DNA of 53,179 nucleotides from Eubacteriales bacterium (lineage in GTDB: Bacteria; Bacillota; Clostridia; Lachnospirales; Lachnospiraceae): contig JAUNOK010000018.1 in assembly GCA_030537195.1 (NCBI GenBank), positions 1 through 53,179 on the forward strand. The letters are read 5' to 3'. The translations under genes and the position numbers were made by a program. The notes under the pieces were generated by a model. That model searched no databases and had not been told where the DNA came from. It saw only the letters and a program-made list of their open reading frames with translations. Shown piece by piece: positions 33,983 through 53,048 of the stretch (position 1 is its first letter; every line of letters starts with the position of its first letter).

Positions 33983-34251
33983 ACCGTGCAGCCGGGGTAG
34001 TAGCGGCACCTTGAACCTGCAATCCGCTATAGCAGGGGTGATGTTCGGCAGAGGGCTGATATTTATGGAGCAGCCCGGTGTAAGTGGTGTTGACATTTGG
34101 GTCTTTCACGACGGAAATCCACGAACCATGTCAGGTCAGGAATGAAGCAGCATTAAGTGGAACCTTCCGGGTGTTGAAAGGGTGCCTGGATCGAGCTAAC
34201 TGCATCGGTAACGTCTGTGGATATCAGTTCGAAGCCGGACGCACGGTTTTT
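33983..34251 (+). ncRNA. ffs: Signal recognition particle RNA, long Gram-positive type
   Basis: About 269 nt. The 5' ACCGTGC (33983-33989) pairs with the 3' GCACGGT (34241-34247), followed by a T-run. The S-domain core reads GTCAGGTCAGGAATGAAGCA (34132-34151), close to the universal SRP tetraloop and Ffh-binding region. The length shows that it carries the Alu domain, as in Bacillus scRNA. It forms the particle that targets nascent membrane and secreted proteins with Ffh. An open frame across it is spurious. Location just before dnaX is conserved in Firmicutes. Confidence 0.95.
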
Positions 34252-34415: not shown

Positions 34416-34477
34416 GATGGTTTTACGCATTGAGGTTAAGAGCTGCGAAAGTAAATAAAGCGCAGAGGGAGGTAACC

Positions 34478-36100
34478 ATGTCATATCAGGCTTTATACAG
34501 AAAATGGCGTCCAGACAATTTTAATGATGTCAAAGGACAGGATACAATAGTAACAACTCTGCGAAATCAGATTAATGCAGACAGAATAGGTCATGCATAT
34601 CTGTTCTGCGGAACGAGGGGAACTGGTAAGACATCAGTTGCGAAGATATTTGCGAAAGCAGTTAATTGTGAGCATCCGGTTGATGGCAATCCTTGTGGGG
34701 AGTGTCCGACATGCAAAGCAATTGCAGCTGGAACAAGCATGAATGTAATAGAGATAGATGCGGCATCTAACAACGGTGTCGATAATATAAGACAGATAAG
34801 AGAAGAAGTACAGTACTCACCGACAGAAGGCAGATTCAAAGTCTATATAATTGATGAGGTTCATATGCTTTCTATAGGAGCGTTCAATGCACTGTTAAAG
34901 ACGCTTGAAGAACCTCCGGCATATGTAATATTTATACTGGCAACAACAGAAGTGGCGAAGATTCCTATTACAATCCTTTCAAGATGTCAGAGATATGACT
35001 TCCACAGGATAACAATAGAGACAATTGCCGGCAGACTGTCAGAACTTATGAAGGCAGAAGGGCTGAATGTAGAGGATAAAGCAATAAAATATGTTGCCAA
35101 AGCTGCAGATGGTTCTATGCGAGATGCGTTAAGTCTGTTGGACCAGTGTCTGGCGTTCTATCTGGGAAAAGACCTTAAGTATGAAAATGTATTAGATGTT
35201 CTTGGGGCAGTTGATACAGCGGTATTCAGCAAAATGCTTTCAACAATCCTGTCAGGAGATGTTGCTGTGTGCATGTCGCTGATGGAAGACCTGATAATGC
35301 AGGGAAGAGATTTGTCACAGTTTGTTACAGACTTCATATGGTATCTGAGAAATCTTCTTCTTATTAAGACAACCAAAGATACTGAAAGAATTGAAGATGT
35401 AATAGAAGTATCTGCAGATAATCTTGAAGATCTTAAGAAAGATGCACAGAACGTTGATATAGATACACTTATGTACTATATAAGAGTGTTGTCAGAGTTA
35501 TCGAATGACCTGAAGTTTTCTACACAGAAGAGAGTTAAGACAGAGATAACATTTATAAAGCTGATGCGTCCGGCGATGGATAACAGTCAGGATATCGGCG
35601 ATGTTGTAAGCCGTGTGACAATGCTTGAAGGACAGTTACAGAAAGTTCTTGATGACATTAAGAGTGGTAAACTTGTAAGTGCAGGTGCTGCACAGGGTCA
35701 GACAGCGGCAGTGCAGCAGGCACCGAAGAAGCCTGTAGTTAAGCGTGTGTATGACGCTGTTCCGGAAGATGTTAAGGCAATTGCGGCAGGATGGAAAGAT
35801 ATCGTTGCAACGATAGATGACCCGGTTAATCAGACATTTTTACAGGCTGCACATGTTACATTAGCAGAAGATGGAATTAGTCTTGAAATTATGGTAGAAT
35901 CACTTAGTGCCTATAATTCACTCAGCAGACAGGAAGTTATGGAAAGCATAGAGAATGTCATTGAGGAGAGAACAGGAGTAAGGGTTTCAATTAAAGTGAC
36001 TAAGCTTAACGATGATGAAGATTTCCACAGCAGATTCGTGGATCTTAAGGAACTCGTAGGCATAGATATAGAAGTAGATGATAAGGAGGAACTTATATAA
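34478..36100 (+). CDS. dnaX: DNA polymerase III subunit gamma/tau
   Basis: 540 residues. The clamp-loader AAA+ module contains Walker [10 protein letters not shown], a four-Cys zinc site ([16 protein letters not shown]), Walker B IIDEVHML and the sensor/SRC motif SRCQRYDF. The C-terminal third is the tau-like region for polymerase and helicase contact. It loads the sliding clamp at the replication fork. The ATG at 34478 has AGGGAGG 6 bases upstream and gives the standard [12 protein letters not shown]. The stop overlaps the ybaB start by one base. Confidence 0.97.
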
Positions 36101-36450
36101 TGGCTAAAAGAGGTGGTTTTCCAGGAGGAATGCCTGGTAATATGAATAATCTGATGAAGCAGGCACAGAGAATGCAGCGTCAGATGGAGGAGCAGCAGGC
36201 AGAGCTTGAGAATAAGGAATTCAGCGCTACAGCAGGCGGCGGAGTAGTTGAGGTAACTGTTACAGGTAAGAGAGAAGTTTCTAAGGTTAAGATTGACCCT
36301 GAAGCAGTTGATCCAGATGATGTAGAGATGCTTGAGGACTTAATCGTAGCAGCTACTAATGAAGCTTTAAGAAAATGCGAAGAAGAGTCACAGGCACAGA
36401 TGGCTAAGATTACTGGAGGACTTGGAGGATTAGGCGGAGGCTTATTCTAA
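36100..36450 (+). CDS. YbaB/EbfC nucleoid-associated protein
   Basis: 116 residues. A Gly/Met-rich start ([20 protein letters not shown]), a central helix and beta region with [20 protein letters not shown], and a Gly-rich end, all standard for YbaB/EbfC. These small dimers bind DNA as tweezers and organise the nucleoid. It overlaps dnaX upstream and recR downstream by one base each (TAATG), so it is translationally coupled, as in most bacteria. Confidence 0.96.
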
Positions 36451-37046
36451 TGGACATCTACAGTGGTCATATAAACAGATTAATTGAAGAATTGTCGAGA
36501 TTACCAGGGGTTGGGGCGAAGAGCGCCCAGCGCCTGGCATTTCACATTATAAACATGCCTGAGTCTGAGGTTAAGAGCCTTGCGGATACAATGATTGATG
36601 CAAAGCAGCATATTCACTACTGTAAGGAGTGCTTTACACTTACAGATGAAGAACTGTGTCCGATATGCCGTGACCAGAAAAGAGACCATAAGACAATTAT
36701 GGTTGTTGAACATACAAGAGATATGGCGGCATATGAAAAGACGGGAAAGTATGAAGGGGTATATCATGTCCTTCATGGTGCAATAAGCCCGATGCTTGGA
36801 ATCGGACCGGCTGATATCAAGTTAAAGGAGCTTATGGTAAGGCTTCAGGGAGATGTTAATGAGGTTATCATTGCAACCAATTCTAATCTTGAAGGCGAGA
36901 CAACAGCAATGTACATAAGCAAAATGATAAAGCCAACAGGAATTAAGGTGACAAGAATTGCAAGCGGAGTACCTGTCGGCGGCGACCTTGAATACATCGA
37001 TGAAGTTACACTTTTAAGAGCGCTGGATGGAAGAACCGAGCTTTAA
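36450..37046 (+). CDS. recR: Recombination mediator protein RecR
   Basis: 198 residues. A helix-hairpin-helix ([16 protein letters not shown]), a four-Cys zinc finger ([16 protein letters not shown]), a Toprim domain ([10 protein letters not shown]) and a Walker-B-like C-terminal part are present. RecR forms a clamp with RecO/RecF and helps RecA replace SSB on gapped DNA. It is the third gene of dnaX-ybaB-recR. The condensin-like operon begins about 110 bases downstream with no clear terminator between. Confidence 0.97.
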
Positions 37047-37154
37047 CATTCAGCTAAGAACTGGGGTTTAAGAACAAGATTAAAAGCTGAGTTGTAAGAT
37101 TAGTGCCTGAGCGTACCAGACACTAATCGATATGTGTAAAATGTGTGCGCAGAA

Positions 37155-38684
37155 ATGAAGAATACTATGGCAGAGAATATGACAGGTGATATCATATCGG
37201 ATCACCGTGAACGAATGCTTAATCTGAAGAAATATTATCCTTTCTTCAGACTGATAGACACATCGTTTTCTAATTTCAAGGACGGTAAGTACGAAATTCT
37301 TGATATGGGCTATATAGTTATGGCGGTTCTCCGTTTCTTTATAGAGGAGAATAATTTTAAGGAAAAGGATGTTACATATCCCGAATATCTCGATTTCTTA
37401 AGGCTGATACTTAAGAGAGATTTCGGGCTTGATTTGAATGAACAGGACAGCAAGGATATTGCTGATTATATATTTGACAAGATAAAGAATGATGGCAGAC
37501 CATTTGAATTCTCGTATTTTGATCCGGTGGACAGGAAAAAGAGAGTCTCAAGAATGAAGATAATCGAGAGTTCAATAAGGGACAATACCGTGTGGTATTC
37601 GATAAGCCCTGATGCTATTGAATTCTATCTTGATACCAAGGAAATCAAGGACGAGAGCAGGATAAGCGTATCCCAGCTTCTTCTTGAAAAAATGATTAAT
37701 TCACAGAACTTCCGTGGCGGAGTTGAAGTGGTTGAAAGAATCAACGAAGAGGTCAACCGCCTTAAGCTAAAGAAGAATGAAGTGCTGACAATATTGTCAG
37801 GTGACGTATTTGCAGGAATAGAGGCATATGAGGAATTCGTCAAGACAGGAATGAAATGGTTTGATGATGAGGAAAAGCTTTTTAAGAAGAACCGTGACCT
37901 CATTGCAAAGTCCATTGAGAAGCTTAATGCGTCGGGCAGTACAGGCGAAGGCTATTACAGGACGATGAACGAGATATACAGCCTTGAGACACAGCTTAAG
38001 CAGGCAATGAACAGGCACAGCGAGCTGTTAAAGGATTGTACAGAAATGCAGAAGATGACCGATGATGCAGTAAGACGCGCCAAGCTTGGCAGATTAAGAA
38101 GCCATATGGATTTCACATCGGCACTTTCAGATATGATTAAGAGGGACAATGCAGATATATTAGTCACAATGTTAAGTCCGCTTCTAAAGCCTAACATAAG
38201 AAAAACATTTGACCTGATAAGCATTGATGATGCACTTATGGTGAAGCCTCCAAGATATGAGGAGAGAGAACTCATAAGCAATGAAAGACCGGAAGACATC
38301 GAGTTTGCAGATGAGATTGAAGAGAAGCGAATTAAAGATAATTATATATTCCTTATGAAAAATCTTGTTGCGTGTTTGAAAAAATCGGACATTATAACAC
38401 TCGGTCAGTTCGCAGACGCAATGAAGAGGGCGTATGGTGAGCAGATTCTAAGAAATGCGGACTTCTTCTCATTTTTTGTTAATCTGTGCCAGAAGGATGA
38501 GTACCATCTTGGCGGTGACGCGGGAGAAGATACATTTCTTGATGCATACTTAGAGGAAGGCTTTAAGGATACGGAAAGCTTTACATTTGCTATAAGAAAA
38601 GGACTTGGCGGGCAGGTTATATTGTCGGATAACTGTATGATGGCTGATGTTGAATTGGTACGAAAGGAAGCACATGGAGAATAG
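37155..38684 (+). CDS. JetA-like kleisin subunit of a Wadjet/MksBEF-type condensin
   Basis: About 509 residues. An N-terminal helical/winged-helix region (about 20-175: YYPFFRLIDTSF, GYIVMAVLRFFIE) is followed by a long coiled coil (about 230-340) and a C-terminal domain. This is the plan of MukF/MksF and of Wadjet JetA; I recall the family as PF18982-type JetA, unverified. Kleisins bridge the two SMC heads and recruit the MukE-like partner. The start is uncertain: GTG at 37143 and ATGs at 37155, 37167 and 37179 are in frame and none has a strong ribosome binding site. It overlaps the next gene by 11 bases, so the three genes form one unit. Confidence 0.8.
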   Translation: MKNTMAENMTGDIISDHRERMLNLKKYYPFFRLIDTSFSNFKDGKYEILDMGYIVMAVLRFFIEENNFKEKDVTYPEYLDFLRLILKRDFGLDLNEQDSKDIADYIFDKIKNDGRPFEFSYFDPVDRKKRVSRMKIIESSIRDNTVWYSISPDAIEFYLDTKEIKDESRISVSQLLLEKMINSQNFRGGVEVVERINEEVNRLKLKKNEVLTILSGDVFAGIEAYEEFVKTGMKWFDDEEKLFKKNRDLIAKSIEKLNASGSTGEGYYRTMNEIYSLETQLKQAMNRHSELLKDCTEMQKMTDDAVRRAKLGRLRSHMDFTSALSDMIKRDNADILVTMLSPLLKPNIRKTFDLISIDDALMVKPPRYEERELISNERPEDIEFADEIEEKRIKDNYIFLMKNLVACLKKSDIITLGQFADAMKRAYGEQILRNADFFSFFVNLCQKDEYHLGGDAGEDTFLDAYLEEGFKDTESFTFAIRKGLGGQVILSDNCMMADVELVRKEAHGE

Positions 38685-39390
38685 AAATCTAGATAAGGCG
38701 CTGGACATAGTTTCCAAGCTTATCACAGGGGAAAATGTGTCTGAGAGGGGCGAGAATGCAGCTCTTTATCAGGAATACAATAATAATGCGGAAGTGTATG
38801 ACATCGTTCATATGTCATTGAAGAAACTTAACCTTAACATATATGAATATAACAATGGTCTGTATGTGAGCGCGGGTGATAATAACAAAGTGTTCGGATA
38901 TTCCAACGAGGAATTAAGAAATGTACTGGGTTTAAGGGTTAACAAAGAGTTATATCTTGCGTATTTCATAATCTACAACATAATAACAGAGTTTTATTCA
39001 GATACAATGAGTTCAACTTATGCTGAGTTCATAAGGCTTGAGGATATCATTAAAAATGTTGATAAGACAACAGGCGGTATTGTCGATAAGAGCGCAGGGC
39101 TTGTGCTTGATGAGGTTGAGGAGAACAGCTTTAAGCAGATAGCACTTACATGGGACGAGCTGCCGGTGACAACAGTAGAGGATCAGACTGGAGCGAGGGC
39201 AGCAAGAAATTCCAAGTCGGGTATGGTAAAGCTTGTGCTTAATTTCTGTGTTGCACAGGAACTCCTGGTTGAGAGTCAGGACAGATATTATCCGACAGAC
39301 AGATTCAGAAGTCTTATAGAGAATTATTTTGATGATTACAGAGGACGATTTGCCGAACTTATGAATGGAGGACGCGATGCCACAGATTAA
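38674..39390 (+). CDS. JetB/MukE-like subunit of the condensin operon
   Basis: 238 residues, mostly helical, with tandem winged-helix-like stretches and no enzyme motif. Size and place between the kleisin-like and SMC-like genes fit the MukE/MksE/JetB role (KITE-type partner of the kleisin); I recall a DUF6063 label for such proteins but cannot confirm it. The ATG at 38674 has AAGGAAG nearby and overlaps the jetA-like end by 11 bases; the earlier ATG at 38647 is less likely. Its end overlaps the jetC-like start by 14 bases. Tight coupling implies stoichiometric synthesis. Confidence 0.75.
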   Translation: MENRNLDKALDIVSKLITGENVSERGENAALYQEYNNNAEVYDIVHMSLKKLNLNIYEYNNGLYVSAGDNNKVFGYSNEELRNVLGLRVNKELYLAYFIIYNIITEFYSDTMSSTYAEFIRLEDIIKNVDKTTGGIVDKSAGLVLDEVEENSFKQIALTWDELPVTTVEDQTGARAARNSKSGMVKLVLNFCVAQELLVESQDRYYPTDRFRSLIENYFDDYRGRFAELMNGGRDATD

Positions 39391-42300
39391 CAGAATCAGA
39401 GTTAATAATGTTAAATATAATTTCGGTACACAGGTGTACGACGATTTCGTGATGCGCTTCAATTGCCAGAATACTATATACGACCTTGCCAATGGTGGTG
39501 GTAAGAGTCTGCTTATGCTGCTTCTTATGCAGAATATGCTCCCTAACTGTACGCTTGATGACAAGCAGCCAATTGAGAAGCTTTTCAGACAGGGAAGCGG
39601 TAACACATGTATTCATTCATTAGTGGAGTGGAAGTTAGACCCATGCTATCAGAAGGATGGCTTCAGATTCATGACAACTGGTTTCTGTGCAAGAAAGGGA
39701 AGAGGCACAGATGATGAGAATCAGGATGGACAGGAGCAGACATCTGCACCGACAGCAAGCGTAGAATACTTTAATTACTGCATATTCTACAGAGAGTTCG
39801 GCGATAACGATATTAAGAATCTTCCACTTGTAAGCAATGGGGAGAGAATTACATATAACGGACTTAAGGCTTATCTTCGTGACCTTGAGAAGAGCGAGTA
39901 CAAATATGTTGTTAAGATATTTGACAGAAAAGGTGATTACCAGAGTTTCATAAGCAACTATGGAATATATGAGAGTGCATGGGAAATAGTCCGTGGAATT
40001 AATAAGACAGAGGGACATGTAAGAACATATTTCGAGTCTAATTATAAGACAAGCCGTAAGGTTGTAGAGGATCTTCTTATAGAGGAGATTATCCAGAAGT
40101 CTTTCAATAACAAGCTGTCAGTTGATAATGACGAGGGCATGATGGCGCAGACTCTTATGGATATCAAGGACAAGCTGGTGGAACTTTCTAAGAAACATTC
40201 ACAGCTTGGAGCATATGACAGCCAGATTGCAGCTATCGACAGTTTTAAAGAATATCTGTCGACATATGAAGCATTTTACAATAGAAAAGAAGAAATCGAG
40301 AAGCAGCTTTATGACCTGCTTCTTGTTGCCATGAGCGAAAGTGATAAGAAGGATAAGGAACTTAAGAGTCAGGATGACCTTATCAATAAGATGCATGATG
40401 AGCTGGCACACGAGAAAGAAGCAATAGCAGTTGCTGAGGTTATGTCTGAAAAGAACTCAATGGCAGGAGTAGAGAGCCTTGTTAATGAGACAAGAAAATC
40501 TCTTGAACTTAAGAACGCCGCAATTGCAGATGCAAGAGGAAAGCTTTCTTTGATGGAATCTGCGGGCGATTATAAAGACTATGCAGAATATGAGAAGTCT
40601 TATAAAGGGCTTCAGATTGCTATAGATAACAGATTAAGAGAAGATACGGATATAACAGCAGAGTTAAAGATACTTGCAGCAGGTTATAGAAAGTTCTATG
40701 AGACAGAGACTAAGAGACTTAAAGAAAAGCTTGATATAGCATCTAACCGCGTTAAGGCTCTTGAAGTCAGATTATCAGAGGCAAAGGATAATCTTAGAAA
40801 TGCTGATAAAGAGGCAGCAGGTCTTGGCAGTCTTTCAGATAATCTTGAGAACGAGATACAGGAGTTACAGACACAGCTTGGAGCATCTTTATCTGAGGCT
40901 GGAACTGTTGTATGTGAAAATGCGTCTGAAGAATATGATAAGTCATTCAGGGACAAAGAACTGTTAAAGAATGAAGAGACAAGAATGTCCGAAAAATTCA
41001 ATGATGTGCAGCAGCAGTTAATGTCACTTAATGAGACAATATCTGCCAATAAGGCGCTTATTGATATATTTACAGAGCAGTCAGATAAGCTTGACAAGGC
41101 TGATGAAGCTGGAAATGCTGATACAGAGCGCATGGGTAAAATCCGTGAAATATATAGTGCAGATAATGATGATGCAATGCTTTCACTTATTCTTGAGACT
41201 TACCAGAAGATGCGTAGTGAATATACAGAAGAGTGTAAGGCAGCAGAAGAACTTGAGAGATTTATTGACAATGCAAGAAAGGGAACATACATCTGCAAGA
41301 GTCCTGAAAGAGACAGACTTAAGGAATACCTTGAGAGCCAGTATGGTTCAGATGTTGTTGAAGGCCATGAGTGGTTTGCTAATCTGAATGCAGGACAGAA
41401 GCGTGATGTATTAAAGAGAACACCTTTCGTTGAGTACGCATTTATAATAAAGAACGATTTCGAGAGAATTAAAGCTGATGAGATGCTTAAGGATTTCGGA
41501 AAAGGTGCCGCAGCCTATCCAGTTATAAGCGAGCAGGTGCTTATCGACACTAAGTTAGAGATTAACAAAGACCTGATTGTATTCGCATTAAAGGATATGT
41601 CATTCCTTCGTGATGAGGCAAAGCTCGAGACACAGATTAAGCTTGCACAGGAGGAACTTGAGTCGCACAAAGCACAGGCAGGAAAGCTGTCAGACAGAAT
41701 GGAACTTGTGTGGAGCGATTATACATTTGCACTTGTATATAATGCTGCGTCTGGAAAGGCTGATGAGTCCGAGGCAGAAGCAATAAGATTAAAGATTGCT
41801 GACGGCGAGGCTGCAATTATTGACGCAGAAAAGAAGAGAAGTACATTAAATGAGATTAAAGAGCAGCTTTCAAGGAACCTCACACAGACAAGGGCTGATA
41901 TTGAAGAAAAGGAAAATTCATGCAGACTTCTTTCACGGATTATTGAGATGAATTCTTCTATAGATAAGAAGTATGAGCGTTTAAAGGGTCTGAAGGCTGA
42001 TGTGGACAGTGCAAGAAACCGCATATATGAGTGCGAGGAGGCAGCAGTTTCTGCTAATTCTGAGTATGAGGCTGCAAGGGATTTCGAGGACAGTACAAGA
42101 AAGGCATATGATGAAATCATTAAATCATGGGAGGAGCAGTACGCACCTTATTATGATGAAAATGTTTCAATAGAAATCGATGATGATACATACCGCCTTG
42201 ATAAGGATGAAATTGAAAGCAGATTCACTGGATTAAAGACAGCACTTTCACAGAAGAACAGTGACTTTGCAGATAAGCAGGCACTTATGAATCATCTGTC

Positions 42301-43810
42301 AGCTTCTATGAACAAATGTCGTGATGCAATAGAGTACAGAGGCTATACATTTGATGATATTAAGGCAAAGTATGAAGCCGGTGAGATTATGGCGGCGGGT
42401 TCACAGCAGTTAAGAACTGCCAAGGACGCTCTTAATAATCTTGTTAAGGGCAGTGATTCTGTAAGGGAAGAGCTTGAGTCGCAGGAAGCACTTCTTAACA
42501 GACTTGAGGGAAGTATTGCACATGGTATTAACCAGATTGAGAATAATTATGGAAGCTTTAACGAGTTCCCATGTGATGACCCTGATGGATTCATTACACA
42601 GCACAAGGCGCTTATTAAGAAGTTAGAGGATAATACTAAGGTTCAGGAAAAGACACGCAGACAGATGTCTGATTCATTGAAAGACATACTTGTATGCAGA
42701 AAAGACCTTGAAAGGATCGTGTCTGATGCGGGCATGCATGTTCCGGAAGAATTTCGTCATGAGGATGCACAAGGAATTACAGCTAATCTTACTGAATATG
42801 AGGATGTACATAAAGAATATGCTTCAATCAACAGATTAGAGTACAAGAAGGTTGATGAATTTAACAAGAATAAAGCTAAACTTATTGACCTGCTTAATGG
42901 ATTTAATGCAGTTGAGCTTGCAGATGAAGTAAGAATATCACTTAATGTTCCTGAAAATGTGGCTAAGACCAGAAGTATGATTGAATCGTTAAATGAAACG
43001 AACACATTTATACAGTTGGAAAAGGACCGTGTTGCCAAGGGCATAGAGGATATGCAGATGATTAAGGATAACTTCGAGAACCGTTGTATCCAGACATGCA
43101 GTAATATTAAGACAGAGCTTGACCGTCTGCCACAGTTATCTAATATCAATCTTGACGGTGAACAGATTGCGATTATCAGTTTACAGATTCCTTATATAAA
43201 GGAAGAATTATATAAGGAAAAGATGTCTGAATATATTGATGAGACTGTATTCATGGCGGAAAGTTTTAAAGAGCCGGCAGAAAGACTTAAGTATATAAGA
43301 AACAGACTGTCATGGAAGAGACTTTTCTCAGTTATTGTCACAGATATGAATTCAATCAGAATTAATCTGTATAAGAGAGAAAGAATCAAGGATCAGAGCC
43401 GTTACTTAAGATATGAAGAGGCGGTTGGTTCAACAGGACAGTCACAGGGTATATATATCCAGTTCCTTATTGCGATTATCAACTACATATCTAATATGAA
43501 TTCTTCAGGTAATGAAGGCGTTGAAGGCAAGACAATATTCATAGATAACCCATTTGGTGCGGCTAAGGATATATACATATGGGAGCCAATATTCAAGCTG
43601 CTTGCAACTAACCATGTACAGCTTGTCGTTCCGGCAAGAGGAGCAACTCCTGCAATTACGGGAAGATTCGATGTTAATTATATACTCGGACAGAAGCTTG
43701 TTGATTCAAGACAGCAGACTGTAGTTGTTGATTATTACAGCAGCACGAAGGAATCAGAATTAGAATATACAAGAATGGATTACGAACAGGCTACATTTGA
43801 TTTTTTGTAA
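39377..43810 (+). CDS. JetC/MukB-like SMC ATPase
   Basis: 1477 residues. N-terminal head with Walker A ANGGGKSLLML (about 39-49); long coiled coils on both sides of a central hinge-like globular region (about 610-755); C-terminal head with a signature-like GSTGQSQG near 1350 and Walker B IFIDNPFGAA near 1389. This is the architecture of MukB/MksB/JetC, which act as ATP-driven DNA loop extruders. Instead of the usual catalytic glutamate after the Walker B Asp there is Asn (DN). The ATG at 39377 has GGAGG 5 bases upstream. It is the last gene of the three; no JetD-like nuclease follows. Confidence 0.85.
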   Translation: MPQINRIRVNNVKYNFGTQVYDDFVMRFNCQNTIYDLANGGGKSLLMLLLMQNMLPNCTLDDKQPIEKLFRQGSGNTCIHSLVEWKLDPCYQKDGFRFMTTGFCARKGRGTDDENQDGQEQTSAPTASVEYFNYCIFYREFGDNDIKNLPLVSNGERITYNGLKAYLRDLEKSEYKYVVKIFDRKGDYQSFISNYGIYESAWEIVRGINKTEGHVRTYFESNYKTSRKVVEDLLIEEIIQKSFNNKLSVDNDEGMMAQTLMDIKDKLVELSKKHSQLGAYDSQIAAIDSFKEYLSTYEAFYNRKEEIEKQLYDLLLVAMSESDKKDKELKSQDDLINKMHDELAHEKEAIAVAEVMSEKNSMAGVESLVNETRKSLELKNAAIADARGKLSLMESAGDYKDYAEYEKSYKGLQIAIDNRLREDTDITAELKILAAGYRKFYETETKRLKEKLDIASNRVKALEVRLSEAKDNLRNADKEAAGLGSLSDNLENEIQELQTQLGASLSEAGTVVCENASEEYDKSFRDKELLKNEETRMSEKFNDVQQQLMSLNETISANKALIDIFTEQSDKLDKADEAGNADTERMGKIREIYSADNDDAMLSLILETYQKMRSEYTEECKAAEELERFIDNARKGTYICKSPERDRLKEYLESQYGSDVVEGHEWFANLNAGQKRDVLKRTPFVEYAFIIKNDFERIKADEMLKDFGKGAAAYPVISEQVLIDTKLEINKDLIVFALKDMSFLRDEAKLETQIKLAQEELESHKAQAGKLSDRMELVWSDYTFALVYNAASGKADESEAEAIRLKIADGEAAIIDAEKKRSTLNEIKEQLSRNLTQTRADIEEKENSCRLLSRIIEMNSSIDKKYERLKGLKADVDSARNRIYECEEAAVSANSEYEAARDFEDSTRKAYDEIIKSWEEQYAPYYDENVSIEIDDDTYRLDKDEIESRFTGLKTALSQKNSDFADKQALMNHLSASMNKCRDAIEYRGYTFDDIKAKYEAGEIMAAGSQQLRTAKDALNNLVKGSDSVREELESQEALLNRLEGSIAHGINQIENNYGSFNEFPCDDPDGFITQHKALIKKLEDNTKVQEKTRRQMSDSLKDILVCRKDLERIVSDAGMHVPEEFRHEDAQGITANLTEYEDVHKEYASINRLEYKKVDEFNKNKAKLIDLLNGFNAVELADEVRISLNVPENVAKTRSMIESLNETNTFIQLEKDRVAKGIEDMQMIKDNFENRCIQTCSNIKTELDRLPQLSNINLDGEQIAIISLQIPYIKEELYKEKMSEYIDETVFMAESFKEPAERLKYIRNRLSWKRLFSVIVTDMNSIRINLYKRERIKDQSRYLRYEEAVGSTGQSQGIYIQFLIAIINYISNMNSSGNEGVEGKTIFIDNPFGAAKDIYIWEPIFKLLATNHVQLVVPARGATPAITGRFDVNYILGQKLVDSRQQTVVVDYYSSTKESELEYTRMDYEQATFDFL

Positions 43811-43945: not shown

Positions 43946-46669
43946 ATGAATAAATACGAATTAGGAATTAAGATAGACCAGATTAAGAAACTGGCAGCAA
44001 AAAAAGAATATGCAGAGGCAGCAGCCATAGCTAAGGATATTAACTGGACCAAGGTTAAGGACTGGCAGGCACTGGCTACTGTTATCAATGTACAGGAAGC
44101 AGTCGGTGACTTTGAAGAAGCAAGAGATATGGCTATTCTTGCTTATAATAGAAACCTTGGAGGAAGAAAGCTTGTATATAAGCTTACTGAATTCTTTATT
44201 AAGGTTGGAGATTATGACAATGCCAACGAGCTTTATGAAGAATACAGCAAATCTTCACAGCATGATGTAAGCAGATTCATTCTGTATTATGACCTCAGAA
44301 AGGCGCAGAACGCATCTGATAATGAACTTGTAAGTATCTTAGAGGAATACAGAGATCATGAGATTGATGAGAAGTATATGTATGAGCTTGCAAGACTTTA
44401 TTATAAGACTGGAAGAAAAGAAGAATGTATTAAGACATGTGATAATATCGTTCTGTGGTTTCAGGATGGTACATATGTTGAGAAAGCAGTACAGTTAAAG
44501 GAGAAGCTTGGCGTTGTTCTTACTAAGACACAGAAGGGCATCTTAGATGATGTCATGAAGAGAAAGAGCGATGTTGAAGCTAATAAGGAAGAACTTTTTG
44601 CAAAGCAGAAAGAGCTTGCTAATCTTAAGAGAGATGAAGTTGAAGATGTTTTCCGCGAAGACGATGAGGAAGAGCAGAAAGCATCTGGCAAACAGCCTGC
44701 ACCAGAGGTAAGTCTTAATGTTCCAGAATATGACAAGGAACAGGAAGAAGGACCTCTTTCAATAGACCTTGTACAGAATGATCAGAATGATGATATCAAA
44801 GCATTTTTAATGAAAGCTCTGAATAAGGATGAGGATGCAGATAATACTAAGGACAGCGCTGTTGTTATGTCTAAGATAGAGACTCCTCAGGTGGAGAAGC
44901 CAGAGGTTTCTGAGACGCTTAGCGAAGATGGAGAGAAGAATTTCTCAAGCGAGATTAATAAGGCAAATGTTTCACTTAAGGAACTTATTGAGAATGCAAA
45001 GCAGAAGTTAGCTAATAATTATGAGCAGATTCATAAAGAAGACGAAGCTGAACAGAGAAAAGAAGCTGAGGAAAGAATCAATAAGGAAGCAGAGAATATT
45101 GATATCAATGTTCCAGTACCAGAATATAACAGTCTCTATGATACAAGAAATCTTCAGGAAGAACTTGCAGCCAAGATGAATGACTTATTCGGTGATGAGG
45201 AAGAAGATGACGATGTCAAGACATTTGTACCAGCTTCCAAGAATAAGGAAGAACAGCCTGCAGAGGAGGTTAAGACTCCTGCTCCTGTAGTTGAACAGGT
45301 TGTTAATGAAGATGCAGAAGCTCAGGAAGATGATGACCAGATTGAAGGTCAGATGGATATAACAGAGTGGATGCAGTCTGTCAGAGAAGAAAAGTATGGC
45401 AAGCAGGATACTAAGGAATTCTCTAAGTCAGAGCTTGAGCGTTATCTTGATGAGAAAGACGAGAAGAGTGCAGCTTACGAAAAGCTTGTAGAGCAGAAGA
45501 AGGAAGAGGCAAAGGCTGACGGCAAAGAGATTGACAAGGAAGAAGCCAAGAGAGCTGCTATAGCACAGATGGCAGTTGATTCTGCGAGAATGGATCTTGC
45601 CATAAGAACAGGCAAGGCAGCAGCAAGACTTGAGCAGGCAGCAACAGTTGTGGCAAATGAAGTTGTTCCATTGGTAACAGCACAGATACCAACTGTTTCA
45701 GAGACAATGATTTCAGATATCAATTCAATAATGAATGAAGATATTGATAATAAAGACAATAAAGAAGAAGGTGAGGAGGCTGTTGTACTAGATGAGGTAG
45801 CTGCAGGTGTTGAGCCGGAAGAAACAGTAGATCCTTTCACCAGACATGAAGAAGAACAGCCATTAATTATGGAAGAAGAGATTGAAGAAACTGAGCAGAA
45901 AGAGAAGAAGCTTACAGGAGAGCTGGCTAAGATATTCAGAAAGTACAGAGATATGCCAGGTCTTGAGGAACAGTTAGCAGATCTTTTTGATTCAATTGAT
46001 GGAGAGATGAATATGAGTTCTTCATCAAGAGGTAATATACTTATATCAGGTAATTCAAGTTCTGATAAAACAGATCTTGCAAGAACTATAGTAAGAGCCA
46101 TTAATACTTTATATCCAGACCAGCAGAAGAAGATTGCCAAGACATCAGGAGAGAGTATTAACCAGAGAGGTATTGCCAAGGCAATGGGCAGACTTAAGGG
46201 AACAGCTCTTATTGTCGAAGGCGCAGGTACAATTCAGCCTAAGAGAATTAATGAACTGCTTAACTGTCTTGAACAGGATACAGACAGAATGATTGTTATA
46301 TTTGAGGATTCAGATACAGACATGAATGTTCTTATCAACTTTAATCCTGAACTTACCAAGACATTCAATCACAGAATTGTACTTAAGCAGTACACAGTTA
46401 ATGAGCTTGTTGAGATGGCAAAGAGATTTGCAAGAAAGAGACAGTACGAGGTTGACGATAATGCGTTACTTGAGCTGTATCTTAAGATTGACAAACTCCA
46501 TAACGTGAATGATAATATTAAACTTGATGATATCAAGGAAATAATCAATCAGGCTATCGTTAATTCTGAGAAGAGAGCATCAAGAAGATTCTTTGGCGGA
46601 CTTAAGAAGAAGAGAAGCGAGAATGGTGATGTTATATTCTTGACAGAGGCAGATTTTAAAGACAGATAA
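43946..46669 (+). CDS. TPR protein with acidic linker and degenerate AAA+ domain
   Basis: 907 residues. About 1-190 are TPR-like helical repeats (KKEYAEAAAIAKDIN, GDFEEARDMAILAYN, GDYDNANELYEEYSK, GRKEECIKTCDNIV). A very acidic, Glu/Lys-rich coiled and disordered linker runs to ~640. The last ~260 residues resemble the CbxX/SpoVK-type AAA+ fold, but the P-loop reads GNSSSDKTDL (about 701-710, with D where Gly is expected) and the Walker B position reads LIVEGAG without the Asp-Glu pair, so ATP hydrolysis is doubtful. The start at 43946 gives MNKYELGIKI with GAGGA upstream. It is probably a scaffold or regulator; its partner is unknown. Confidence 0.7.
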   Translation: MNKYELGIKIDQIKKLAAKKEYAEAAAIAKDINWTKVKDWQALATVINVQEAVGDFEEARDMAILAYNRNLGGRKLVYKLTEFFIKVGDYDNANELYEEYSKSSQHDVSRFILYYDLRKAQNASDNELVSILEEYRDHEIDEKYMYELARLYYKTGRKEECIKTCDNIVLWFQDGTYVEKAVQLKEKLGVVLTKTQKGILDDVMKRKSDVEANKEELFAKQKELANLKRDEVEDVFREDDEEEQKASGKQPAPEVSLNVPEYDKEQEEGPLSIDLVQNDQNDDIKAFLMKALNKDEDADNTKDSAVVMSKIETPQVEKPEVSETLSEDGEKNFSSEINKANVSLKELIENAKQKLANNYEQIHKEDEAEQRKEAEERINKEAENIDINVPVPEYNSLYDTRNLQEELAAKMNDLFGDEEEDDDVKTFVPASKNKEEQPAEEVKTPAPVVEQVVNEDAEAQEDDDQIEGQMDITEWMQSVREEKYGKQDTKEFSKSELERYLDEKDEKSAAYEKLVEQKKEEAKADGKEIDKEEAKRAAIAQMAVDSARMDLAIRTGKAAARLEQAATVVANEVVPLVTAQIPTVSETMISDINSIMNEDIDNKDNKEEGEEAVVLDEVAAGVEPEETVDPFTRHEEEQPLIMEEEIEETEQKEKKLTGELAKIFRKYRDMPGLEEQLADLFDSIDGEMNMSSSSRGNILISGNSSSDKTDLARTIVRAINTLYPDQQKKIAKTSGESINQRGIAKAMGRLKGTALIVEGAGTIQPKRINELLNCLEQDTDRMIVIFEDSDTDMNVLINFNPELTKTFNHRIVLKQYTVNELVEMAKRFARKRQYEVDDNALLELYLKIDKLHNVNDNIKLDDIKEIINQAIVNSEKRASRRFFGGLKKKRSENGDVIFLTEADFKDR

Positions 46670-48853: not shown

Positions 48854-50173
48854 CTATTGCATGATGCCAGGGTGCTGTATTAATATAGTGTATTTAAAAT
48901 AATGGTCTTTCTCATCGTACGAATACTGCATAATTCCATCGTAACTGTCAACAATTCTTTTAATGCTTCGTGTTCCAAGACCATGATTAATAGTGTCCGG
49001 TTTGGTTGTACGTAAAGTTCCATCGGGGGCAATCGGATTATTACTGCATGAGTTGGTAACGATAATAAGATCTGCATTGCCATTCTGTATAAGTGAGACA
49101 TTACAGTCAATAAATGCATGCGGAGTACCACTTGCAGCGGCAACAGCATTGTCGAGAAGATTACCGAACAATGAAGCATAATCGTTAGCAGAAAAATATT
49201 CTAAGGTTCTGTATCTTATGTCAGCAGCAAAACTGATATCATTGCTGGCACATATCTGTGCATAACGTGACAGAATTGCATTAAATATAGGGTTCCGGCA
49301 ATATGTTCTTGAGCTTTTAAGTGCATCACTGTCAGAAAGCTCAGATATATAATCAGATATTTCTTTCGTATGACTTCCATCATTGAGGGCTGCGATTGTA
49401 TTAAGGTGCTCTTTGATATCATGAATCAATATCCGCTGTTTATCATAATTGCCTTTGAGAGAATTATAATACTGTACATTATCCGATTCGCGTTGTAATT
49501 CAAGTAAAAGGCGGGCATTTTCATTGTTCTTCCTGACAATAATCTGCTGCATATAAAATGTGAACATGTTAATTGCCAGTAACAGCAGTATGGACACAGA
49601 AATATATGTATTAGCCTTTGAAGGAAGTGGCATGCTTATACATATAAAACATAGACATAACATAATAATTATAGATGTTGCAGGAATGATAGAAAGAAAA
49701 AGGGTGCTTCTATCAGAGTAAGGATATGAACCTTTTCTTTTTTTCAGGATTGTGGATACAGCCTGTGATATGAATAAATAAATTGTTTTACTTATGAAAA
49801 CATAAAGTGCAGTATTATTAATAGTGCCTGATTCACGGTAAAATAATATACAAAGATTAGGGACAAAGCCTACAACTAATAATTCAGATAACCCCATTAT
49901 AATTGTCAACATAAGGCTGTGAAAAATAGCAGAAAAGAAGGAAATATCAGATATTATAATGGTAACAATATATGTAATAAGAATAAAAGAAATAATATTC
50001 AAAACAGGAAAATGTAACATATATACAGGCGCTGATAACAAATTCATAATTATTGCTATTAATATTGAGAGAGGAGTGTTTAATCTCTGCTTGAAGAGTT
50101 TATTACAATAAAGCCATAAAATAAATGCTTCAATCACAGAGGCAACCGTATAATATGTAAGTGAATTATCCAT
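48854..50173 (-). CDS. AgrC-like sensor histidine kinase (GHKL)
   Basis: 439 residues. Six or seven membrane segments fill the first ~220 residues, typical of AgrC/peptide-pheromone receptors. Then comes a coiled dimerisation helix with HDIKEHLNTIAAL (phospho-accepting His) and a GHKL ATPase domain with LFGNLLDNAVAAA (N box) and GLGTRSIKRIVDSY (G box). It would sense an extracellular signal, probably a peptide, and phosphorylate the LytTR regulator encoded 13 bases upstream on the same strand. No AgrB/AgrD pair is in the window. Confidence 0.88.
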   Translation of the reverse strand: MDNSLTYYTVASVIEAFILWLYCNKLFKQRLNTPLSILIAIIMNLLSAPVYMLHFPVLNIISFILITYIVTIIISDISFFSAIFHSLMLTIIMGLSELLVVGFVPNLCILFYRESGTINNTALYVFISKTIYLFISQAVSTILKKRKGSYPYSDRSTLFLSIIPATSIIIMLCLCFICISMPLPSKANTYISVSILLLLAINMFTFYMQQIIVRKNNENARLLLELQRESDNVQYYNSLKGNYDKQRILIHDIKEHLNTIAALNDGSHTKEISDYISELSDSDALKSSRTYCRNPIFNAILSRYAQICASNDISFAADIRYRTLEYFSANDYASLFGNLLDNAVAAASGTPHAFIDCNVSLIQNGNADLIIVTNSCSNNPIAPDGTLRTTKPDTINHGLGTRSIKRIVDSYDGIMQYSYDEKDHYFKYTILIQHPGIMQ

Positions 50174-50186
50174 AAATCTCCTTTAT

Positions 50187-50891
50187 CTAAACATGCGAGT
50201 TAACATATGCAGCATAGTGTTCTTTAAAATCTGTATATTTTCTAGCTGCAACATCTGCAGACAAATTACTATTAAGATATATATTGTGCGAATTGTGAGA
50301 AACCACATAATTCAAGTTAATAATAAAACTTCTATGGCACTGATAAAAATAATTATGTTCCAGCTTTTCTTTTATTTCTGAAAATGACTGATAAGGTTTA
50401 AAATTACCATTAGTTGTATATATAATGGTCTGTCTCAAAGAAGCTTCAACCATTATGATATCATTCTGATTGATAACCACATAGTCAGAACCACATTTTA
50501 CATATAGTGTTGAATTCTGGTTATTGTATGCGGCGACAGCATCCTGCATATTGCGAAAAAGACGGTCTTTATCAATTGGTTTCGATATATATCTGAAAAC
50601 ATTAAAACGCATGGCATCATCCAGATAATCCATGAAAGAGGTTATTACTATAATAATAGCATCAGGATACTTGTTGTGTAATATGTTACCCACATCTATA
50701 CCAGACAATTCCGGCATCTGAATATCAAGAAAGACAATATCTGGTCTGACATTAGATGATAAAAGAGATTTTCCATCGGTAAATGTATGAAAAACAGGCA
50801 TTGTCATATTATTGGTTCTGAAAAATTCAGATACGAGCGAATTAATTTCATTACATATAAGAGTATTGTCGTCACATATAATAATATTCAT
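50187..50891 (-). CDS. LytTR-family response regulator (AgrA-like)
   Basis: 234 residues. The receiver domain has the acidic pair CDD at 6-8, phospho-acceptor D56 (IVFLDIQMP) and switch residues ITSF. The C-terminal LytTR DNA-binding domain contains IMVEASLRQTIIYTTNG and FYQCHRSFIINLNYV. It forms an operon with the histidine kinase and is divergent from a lipoprotein operon, its most likely target. A GGAGACC-like site precedes the ATG. Confidence 0.92.
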   Translation of the reverse strand: MNIIICDDNTLICNEINSLVSEFFRTNNMTMPVFHTFTDGKSLLSSNVRPDIVFLDIQMPELSGIDVGNILHNKYPDAIIIVITSFMDYLDDAMRFNVFRYISKPIDKDRLFRNMQDAVAAYNNQNSTLYVKCGSDYVVINQNDIIMVEASLRQTIIYTTNGNFKPYQSFSEIKEKLEHNYFYQCHRSFIINLNYVVSHNSHNIYLNSNLSADVAARKYTDFKEHYAAYVNSHV

Positions 50892-51105: not shown

Positions 51106-51127
51106 CGGATAAAATGGGGGATTGAAT

Positions 51128-52060
51128 ATGAAAAGAAAAATAGCATGTGTATTATTAGTGGCAATGTCGCTGCAGTTGTTGTCTTGTGGACAACATGACA
51201 GTAACGAGACACTGACTGAGCCAAACTATGTGCTTCAGGAATATGAGACAACGAAGAGCGAGAATGGATATTCAGTAGTTAATGATTTTATGGTCTATGA
51301 TGAACCAAGTGCTTCCGGATTGTATATATATTATCCATATGTTGAAGAAAAGAAAAAAGGTGTGAACTACCTTGATGATATGTATATAAGAGGAAATTTT
51401 GCTAGGGATGAGGAATTACAAGGGGAGGCAAGACCAGACGGTACATCAAGTAAAGCTGGAAATTCAGCGTGTGACAGTATGATAGTTAATGTATGGTCTA
51501 CACCGGAGTTTGCATTAAAATATAATTCTATTTCATCTAATGGAGTAGGTGATGAACGCGTTGGTTTTGCATTTTCATATCTTATTGATTCTGGTGACAA
51601 AGAATATAAATCAGGTGATGATACAATGGCAGATATCGATGTTGCAGCATATTCTTTTGCACTGTATGAGGATTTTAAAGATTATGGCGGTCTGGTATGC
51701 ACTGTAGAGGTATATGGAGTACCGCAGGCTTTATTTAAAGAGAAACTTGGCAAGAAATTTGATAGCGATAAATTATATGATTTTTTGGATAAGCTGAAAA
51801 AAGATAATTATAAATCATGTGAGCTTCTTGCAACTAAAAGTATTACTGAAACTGACGTATATTATATAGATTATTCTGAGTTTAGTAAAAAGGGGCAGTA
51901 TGGAAATTATGTCATAAAGTACACCTTTAGTGAAAAACCGCGTTATAACTGGGTTAATACTGTAAATGTCGGCCGTTACAATATTAATGATGAAGCAAAG
52001 TATACAAGCTGGAAAAAGGAGCATGCAGACAAGTTCATCAATATAATTGATAAAGGTTAG
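51128..52060 (+). CDS. Lipoprotein 1 of a tandem paralogous pair
   Basis: 310 residues with a lipoprotein signal peptide (lipobox LLSC). The domain contains a RPDGTSS motif, then AAYSFALYEDF, a predicted helix pair around FLDKLKKDNYKSCELLA, and VYYIDYSEFSKKGQYGNY near the end. All these are shared in order with the next gene. No catalytic motif. The ATG at 51128 follows GGGGG; a TTG two codons earlier is not needed. It would be surface-anchored, and its divergence from an AgrCA-like system suggests signal-controlled expression. Confidence 0.8.
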   Translation: MKRKIACVLLVAMSLQLLSCGQHDSNETLTEPNYVLQEYETTKSENGYSVVNDFMVYDEPSASGLYIYYPYVEEKKKGVNYLDDMYIRGNFARDEELQGEARPDGTSSKAGNSACDSMIVNVWSTPEFALKYNSISSNGVGDERVGFAFSYLIDSGDKEYKSGDDTMADIDVAAYSFALYEDFKDYGGLVCTVEVYGVPQALFKEKLGKKFDSDKLYDFLDKLKKDNYKSCELLATKSITETDVYYIDYSEFSKKGQYGNYVIKYTFSEKPRYNWVNTVNVGRYNINDEAKYTSWKKEHADKFINIIDKG

Positions 52061-52088
52061 ACAACCGAATGGGGAAAAGGAGGGGCTT

Positions 52089-53048
52089 ATGAGAAAGGTA
52101 TTATTAACAACAGTATTATTGGGAGTTATGTTTTCAGTGAGTGCATGTTCAGGAAACAAAGATGTTGTATCAGATGAAAGTTCTGAACTGCTTGCGAAAC
52201 CAGAAGTTACACAGGCATCAACTAAGGAAAGTGAAAGTGTTAATGATAATTCAGGAACAGATGACACTGGGAAATATGAGAAAATCCAGTATGGAGAGGA
52301 TGAGATTTATTTTCCTATAATAAAAGAAAGTGACAAGATACGAGGTGTGCAGTATCTGTATGATGCGTATTATGCGGAAAATATGGATGTATATAAATCA
52401 ATAAACCGTCCAGATGGTACTTCTTCAGTAGAAGGTAATATGCAATTAAGTTGTTGTGCAGGAGCGTTACCAGATTTTGCTGTTATAACCGATGAAATGA
52501 TAAATAAAAGAAATGAAATGATAGATACAAAGAATGAGCTTATTAAGAAAAGAGTATCAGAGGCATATACAAGAACTACAGAAGGGGGAGCATATAACAG
52601 AGCTCAAAAGACTAAGTATCAGATAAATAATAATGTAGATGTACAGGCAGTGTCATTTGCTTTATATGAAAGCTTTTATGAAACGATACCTAATCTTACA
52701 GTAAATGTATATGGAATAAGTTCTTCAACATGGAATAAATATCTGCCGGAAGACGATATTTATTCTTATAATGATTTTACAGATATGATGTCAGCACTGG
52801 CTGAAAATAATTATTCAGGCTGTGATAAACTCGCCAGCAGGGAAATTGATAAGAGCGGCGTATATTATATGGATTATAGTGAGTATAACAAGGATAACAG
52901 ATATAAGCAGTTATTCATAGTGGCAGAATTTGATGAAATGCCGGTCGATTATGCAGTGGTTATTAATGATGCCATGAATTACAACATAAGTAAACCTGAA
53001 GATTATGCTAAGTGGAAAGAGAATAATAAGGATAAATTTATAGAATAA
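52089..53048 (+). CDS. Lipoprotein 2 of a tandem paralogous pair
   Basis: 319 residues, lipobox VSAC, then a Ser/Thr/Asp-rich linker and the same domain as the gene before it: RPDGTSSVEGN, VSFALYESF, NVYGIS, a helix with LAENNYSGCDKLA, and VYYMDYSEYNKDNRYKQ before the C-terminal YAKWKENNKDKFIE. AGGAGG lies just before the ATG at 52089, so the longer frame is not used. It follows lipoprotein 1 by 28 bases and precedes a membrane-protein gene. The function is unknown; the pair may form a heteromeric surface complex. Confidence 0.8.
   Translation: MRKVLLTTVLLGVMFSVSACSGNKDVVSDESSELLAKPEVTQASTKESESVNDNSGTDDTGKYEKIQYGEDEIYFPIIKESDKIRGVQYLYDAYYAENMDVYKSINRPDGTSSVEGNMQLSCCAGALPDFAVITDEMINKRNEMIDTKNELIKKRVSEAYTRTTEGGAYNRAQKTKYQINNNVDVQAVSFALYESFYETIPNLTVNVYGISSSTWNKYLPEDDIYSYNDFTDMMSALAENNYSGCDKLASREIDKSGVYYMDYSEYNKDNRYKQLFIVAEFDEMPVDYAVVINDAMNYNISKPEDYAKWKENNKDKFIE

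Follow-up and report, generated by a model that had tools for sequence, protein, structure and literature searches.

The JetABC locus downstream of recR

Contig JAUNOK010000018.1 (53,179 nucleotides; hereafter the window, meaning the whole stretch analysed) belongs to a Lachnospiraceae genome of 2,569,914 bases that is 99.84% complete. It carries three overlapping genes, jetA, jetB, and jetC, whose products match three of the four subunits of the Wadjet type III system, and no jetD, the gene encoding the Toprim nuclease of that system (Table 1). An earlier note, made from the sequence of the window, had described these products as kleisin-like, MukE-like, and 1477-residue SMC-like proteins in a JetABC layout, directly after dnaX-ybaB-recR and with no jetD beside them, and this description held throughout. 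Searched with PADLOC profiles in the frames of the open reading frame (ORF) list, the proteins matched JetA3 (PDLC00560, 781 bits, E = 1.1e-235, residues 9-509 of a 513-amino acid [aa] frame), JetB3 (PDLC00571, 376 bits, E = 1.3e-113), and JetC3 (PDLC00581, 2038 bits, E = 0), all three nearly end to end, with kleisin and KITE identities being those of the Jet labels. Nine further genes of the window were scanned, and no Jet protein was found among their products; recR ends 108 bases before jetA.

Of the three proteins, JetB alone matched a Pfam family (DUF6063, PF19539, E = 2.1e-47). JetC contains NGGGKS (residues 39-44), the signature-like GSTGQ (residues 1351-1355), and FIDNPFG (residues 1388-1394), which we take to be the Walker A, signature, and Walker B motifs, respectively; each is kept in at least 90% of the 44 JetC rows of the JetD-less clade described below. 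No Muk family among the Pfam and NCBIfam models matched the window Jet proteins up to E = 1. Against the PDB, the JetA and JetB profiles matched no Muk chain up to E = 10, and the JetC profile reached MukB only through a weak coiled-coil match (E = 0.0025). The Jet matches contradict the possibility, raised in the earlier note, that profile searches would find the proteins unrelated to Jet and Muk families.

With the chosen starts, jetA and jetB overlap by 11 bases and jetB and jetC by 14 bases, and because of these overlaps the three genes are inferred to be co-transcribed. Ribosome-binding-like sequences precede the ATG codons of jetB (GGAAG at 38666; the ORF-list frame begins at 38647) and jetC (GGAGG at 39367; the ORF-list frame begins at 39365).

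Table 1. Features at and around jetABC in the window; the names dnaX, ybaB, and recR come from sequence and synteny and not from a profile search
Feature	Position	Strand	Remarks
jetA, kleisin-type subunit of the Wadjet type III kind	37155..38684	+	509 aa, ATG start; alternative in-frame GTG start at 37143 gives 513 aa
jetB, KITE/MukE-type subunit, DUF6063	38674..39390	+	238 aa, ATG start
jetC, SMC-type ATPase	39377..43810	+	1477 aa, ATG start
Bacterial large signal recognition particle RNA, upstream of dnaX	33984..34246	+	Rfam RF01854, 184 bits
dnaX (context)	34430..36100	+	ORF
ybaB-type nucleoid-associated protein (context)	36100..36450	+	ORF
recR (context)	36450..37046	+	ORF
Tetratricopeptide repeat (TPR) protein with C-terminal AAA-like (SpoVK/EccA-like) domain	43946..46669	+	ORF-list start 43871

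JetD-less and JetD-carrying type III loci

The canonical type III gene order is jetD-jetA-jetB-jetC, hence a missing jetD would be expected in the 108-base gap between recR and jetA. A search of the whole genome for JetD, as proposed in the earlier note, found none: the Pfam model JetD_C had no match, and a profile of 17 type III JetDs gave none up to E = 10, the latter search lacking a positive control of its own. As controls, JetD_C found JetD at 18 of 19 JetD-carrying family loci, the one exception being truncated at a contig end. When the 17-row profile was rebuilt at half its size, it still detected every one of the held-out JetDs (8/8).

Scrutinizing 250 genomes of the family with JetC3 revealed two kinds of type III locus. 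Thirty-three matches, that of the window included, scored 990 to 2038 bits and were separated by a gap from 19 at 95 to 190 bits; below 95 bits, the matches listed comprised a jetC stub in genome G218 and partial, mostly coiled-coil matches. All 32 other high-scoring and all 19 low-scoring loci were fetched with their flanks. JetD_C matched on the contig of none of the 33 high-scoring loci, against JetD on the same contig at all 19 low-scoring ones, and the JetD profile likewise found nothing at the 32 fetched high-scoring loci (0/32). A jetA was called at 30 of these, and 28 of them have 1.2 kb or more of DNA in view on its upstream side. In the low-scoring group, jetD adjoins jetA in 18 of 19 loci in the order jetD-jetA-jetB-jetC, and PADLOC labelled both JetDs scanned (L083 and L097) as JetD3. 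The exception is G176, where ~9.5 kb separates jetA from an upstream jetD and ORFs of 2433 aa and 381 aa stand between the two (L225:2069-15499, G176:C10). Genomes G151 and G174 each hold one locus of either kind.

JetD was also missing, within the available flanks, from the best 80 loci among at least 362 confirmed named relatives; in 63 of these 80 loci the DNA before jetA extends for 1.2 kb or more, enough to show jetD. These JetD-less relatives include Lachnospira multipara, L. pectinoschiza, 'Lactobacillus rogosae', [Clostridium] fimetarium, Diplocloster modestus, Frisingicoccus caecimuris, Eubacterium ruminantium, and Clostridium akagii.

Across the class, JetC matched in 24 of 391 genomes at E = 1e-15. 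Twenty of the 27 places listed were fetched; the other seven comprised two already in the set, one that completed a split gene, and four weak matches (66 to 85 bits). One fetched locus, from a genome of the same family (G384), has the order dnaX-ybaB-recR-jetABC-TPR-transketolase without jetD. The other 19 lie outside the clade, and jetD is directly upstream in 17 of them (one a fragment at a contig end). A single genome, G573, supplied a lone jetC with no jetA, jetB, or jetD within the 19 kb fetched (L211, G573:C1) and a jetABC with no jetD in view (L223, G573:C2), possibly further, separate JetD-less cases.

A tree of 82 rows, built on the head columns of JetC, placed the 44 JetD-less rows of this type in one clade with a Shimodaira-Hasegawa-like approximate likelihood ratio test (SH-aLRT) value of 99. 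A fork with support of 92 joined this clade to four JetD-carrying loci (L205-L208), and the remaining 31 JetD-carrying rows fell outside both. The tree requires four changes in the state of JetD; the three changes elsewhere concern L211, L223, and L099, whose jetD was later located 9.5 kb away. Because the JetD-less rows form one clade beside JetD-carrying loci, the loss appears derived. Either side of the next forks holds loci with JetD, and the simplest reading is therefore that JetD was lost in the ancestor of the clade.

The link to RecR and DnaX proved narrower than the earlier note had proposed: recR and dnaX were each found upstream of jetA in 11 of the 32 fetched family loci, four of which had little or no upstream DNA, and recR in 32 of the 80 best named loci. 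Other JetD-less loci have different surroundings. By eye, three of them (L059, L077, and L081) show a ~770-aa protein with a Crp-like start directly before jetA and a tadA-like gene farther upstream, where other loci show dnaX-ybaB-recR. In G218, dnaX-ybaB-recR is followed by a 45-codon remnant of the jetC 3' end (L224:12462-12596, G218:C43) and then the TPR gene, indicating that JetABC was formerly there and was lost in place. Together, the G218 stub and L187 point to an ancient recR-JetABC-TPR order in this subclade, from which JetABC was later lost in some members.

Conservation and proposed function of the JetD-less clade

Ratios of nonsynonymous to synonymous substitution rates (dN/dS) between the window and the 93%-identical locus L105 were 0.040 for jetA, 0.012 for jetB, and 0.072 for jetC, with 0.041 for dnaX and 0.009 for recR as comparison genes. 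Toward more distant relatives, values for the jet genes were 0.03 to 0.15 where dS was unsaturated. Hence jetABC is under purifying selection. None of the 33 high-scoring family JetC matches, one of them cut by a contig end, has an internal stop. Within the genus, JetC was present in 18 of 22 genomes and in 12 of the 13 good ones, the window's own included. The housekeeping role favoured in the earlier note fits this conservation, the selection, and the neighbouring genes.

Smc (TIGR02168) was encoded in all 33 genomes, above the cut-off in 32 and split between two contigs in one, and JetC as a replacement for Smc was rejected on this ground. Distances between JetC heads correlated with those between Smc proteins (Pearson 0.82 in 31 genomes without the outlier G092; 0.49 in 32 with it; G040, where smc is split, was omitted), and in neither case did any of 2000 permutations reach as high a value. 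The correlation speaks for descent in place.

We consider it probable that the locus encodes a nuclease-free loop extruder domesticated from Wadjet type III and acting on the cell's own DNA, a reading drawn by analogy with MksBEF and Wadjet. A four-gene plasmid-cleavage system (jetD-jetA-jetB-jetC) would have lost jetD and become a three-subunit SMC complex, whose JetA kleisin, JetB KITE protein, and JetC ATPase may still load on DNA and extrude loops with ATP. Deprived of the cutter, JetABC would act on the chromosome, in compaction or in the handling of sisters or replication intermediates, and would serve beside Smc as an accessory condensin parallel to Pseudomonas MksBEF. MksBEF belongs to another Jet lineage and to another phylum, and the role shown for it is here only proposed. 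In common with the window, MksBEF of Pseudomonas aeruginosa combines a kleisin, a KITE protein, and an SMC protein without MksG/JetD and shares its cell with Smc, according to one report (PMC7485682); at the window, the kleisin and KITE parts of this likeness are again by Jet label.

A review (PMC10586767) describes JetABC as the loop-extruding sensor of Wadjet and JetD as its cutter. According to this review, P. aeruginosa MksBEF has a part in organising the chromosome and likely arose when JetD was lost; its authors also speculate that MksBEF and MukBEF both descend from Wadjet, MukBEF having had a similar past. An even chance may be given to the broader proposal that a single conversion in an ancestor of many Lachnospiraceae turned a plasmid cutter into a nuclease-free chromosomal condensin beside Smc, and that one subclade built it into the dnaX-ybaB-recR block. 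The history suggested for MksBEF/MukBEF would then have been repeated independently here, with its phylogeny resolved.

Compared with Wadjet type III (JetABCD), the window shares near full-length JetA3, JetB3, and JetC3 matches in overlapping genes, the A-B-C order, and the ATPase motifs, but lacks the operon's JetD, has mostly non-defence neighbours, and belongs to a separate, well-conserved clade. In the terms of the earlier note, MukBEF has the same three-subunit F/E/B architecture, yet no sequence match to MukF, MukE, or MukB beyond the coiled-coil similarity of JetC was found; moreover, MukBEF replaces Smc-ScpAB according to that review (PMC10586767), whereas Smc, the component searched for, is present here. 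MksBEFG of Corynebacterium glutamicum, a Wadjet type I system, has the JetABC core but also the nuclease MksG, and acts on plasmids only and not on the chromosome (PMC7083940). Nuclease-free Jet relatives as such are already known; a search of the open-access literature, outside which lie most subscription papers and all bioRxiv preprints, turned up no account of a type III clade without JetD. JetD loss is seen here within one family, and JetD-carrying loci persist, even alongside the JetD-less form in G151 and G174, hence gut commensals offer a setting in which to date, compare, and test the loss. Gene-by-gene annotation with defence profiles would label such loci Wadjet despite the missing cutter.

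Several observations weigh against a domesticated chromosomal extruder. The kleisin and KITE assignments rest on Jet family labels, and the folds remain putative, as the profiles of JetA, JetB, and JetC reached nothing in the PDB beyond similarities at coiled coils, at repeats, or at chance level. The clade's ABC signature is divergent, GSTGQSQG versus SGGE-like in most JetD-carrying rows, a change that the JetD-carrying sister loci share in part. The JetC tree was built by a quick method without bootstrap, has flagged long branches, and is midpoint rooted. Nor is the JetC-Smc correlation special to the JetD-less clade, since loci outside it correlate too (0.58, n = 19, 14/2000 permutations; 0.73, n = 16, 2/2000). 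Finally, JetABC is not essential and is dispensable in some species, as four genus genomes, one of them good (G649), show no JetC and G218 retains only a stub.

Such occasional losses, fitting a nonessential function, would suit a JetABC that remains anti-plasmid or anti-phage without cutting, trapping or silencing small circular DNA by loop extrusion. Its nearest kin carry JetD and belong to a defence family, and in C. glutamicum the copy number of plasmids is influenced by MksBEFG (PMC7083940). We nevertheless regard this alternative as unlikely. Most of the genus has kept JetABC, its JetC distances follow those of Smc, and suppression of plasmid transformation in Bacillus subtilis required all four Jet subunits according to the review cited above (PMC10586767). 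Defence neighbours are also few. Scanning the nearest two genes on each side with PADLOC (E = 1e-20; proteins of at least 1300 aa and those touching a locus end dropped; L211 left out) gave three families in 115 proteins flanking the 33 JetD-less loci, from four proteins matching GlgB, mad3, and subtilase models that were read as generic. The 37 type III loci outside the clade, which include L099 and L223, both without an adjacent jetD, gave 77 families, 25 of them listed, in 129 proteins; many are overlapping models of few proteins (e.g. DpdE/ZorD, RT, AbiEi), hence they represent a small, uncounted set of defence genes. A phage collection contained no match, and plasmids yielded one weak match (23% identity over 21%).

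Less likely again is a Wadjet system whose nuclease, JetD in trans or another, is encoded elsewhere in the genome, as the earlier note had also entertained. JetD_C matched on another contig in 10 of the 33 genomes with a JetD-less locus, and the genome-wide nuclease searches covered JetD. However, JetD matched nowhere in the genome of the window itself, and JetD elsewhere is as frequent in genomes without this JetC type (10/33 vs 70/217, together 80 of the 250; Fisher p = 1), so that neither JetD in trans nor a co-occurring jetD elsewhere is supported. Furthermore, two of the ten (G151 and G174) have a second, complete type III locus, and three (G014, G115, and G227) have fragments or matches below the cut-off.

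That the downstream TPR/AAA-like protein serves as a functional fourth subunit in place of JetD appears improbable still. Its gene lies next after jetC at 22 of the 32 fetched family loci, among them 11 of the 21 where no recR is in view, and at 51 of the 80 best named loci, and among 20 sampled genomes without this JetABC it stood beside recR in only one. Yet the family was matched in 243 of 250 genomes (E = 0.001, some weakly), most of them without this JetABC, which weakens it as a JetABC-specific subunit; at 10 of the 32 loci, of which one has no downstream DNA, the gene is not seen in the vicinity of jetC, and the linkage is accounted for by a gene order inherited from a common ancestor. 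The protein is a frequent jetC neighbour and a candidate member of the system. Its matches to Pfam TPR_19 and NCBIfam spore_V_K/EccA are far below cut-offs. A long acidic linker precedes its C-terminal AAA-like domain, and the P-loop is degenerate in the window's lineage (GNSSSDKT vs the alignment consensus G..K.GKT).

Decay of a Wadjet relic after nuclease loss, which the loss of JetABC in some relatives might suggest, can practically be dismissed, being contradicted by dN/dS of 0.01 to 0.15 where dS is unsaturated and by the lack of internal stops noted above.

Other features of the window

In the gap between recR and jetA (37098-37128), the window has an inverted repeat, GATTAGTG...CACTAATC. 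By eye, this hairpin occurs in the window and its closest relative, L105, and not in that form in the other 14 of 16 sequences. In L111, the gap measures 301 bases and forms one very long hairpin (-90.7 kcal/mol) that resembles an inserted repeat element. Promoter-like sites were at chance level (35 found vs 34.7 expected); terminator-like sites numbered 11 against 5.8 expected, none within the recR-jetA gap. Downstream of jetC, a transketolase gene, named from sequence and synteny, lies beyond the TPR/AAA-like gene. Toward the end of the window, two neighbouring and apparently paralogous secreted or lipoprotein-like genes (51122-53048) stand beside a sensor/LytTR-like regulator pair (48854-50891), both pairs being named from sequence.

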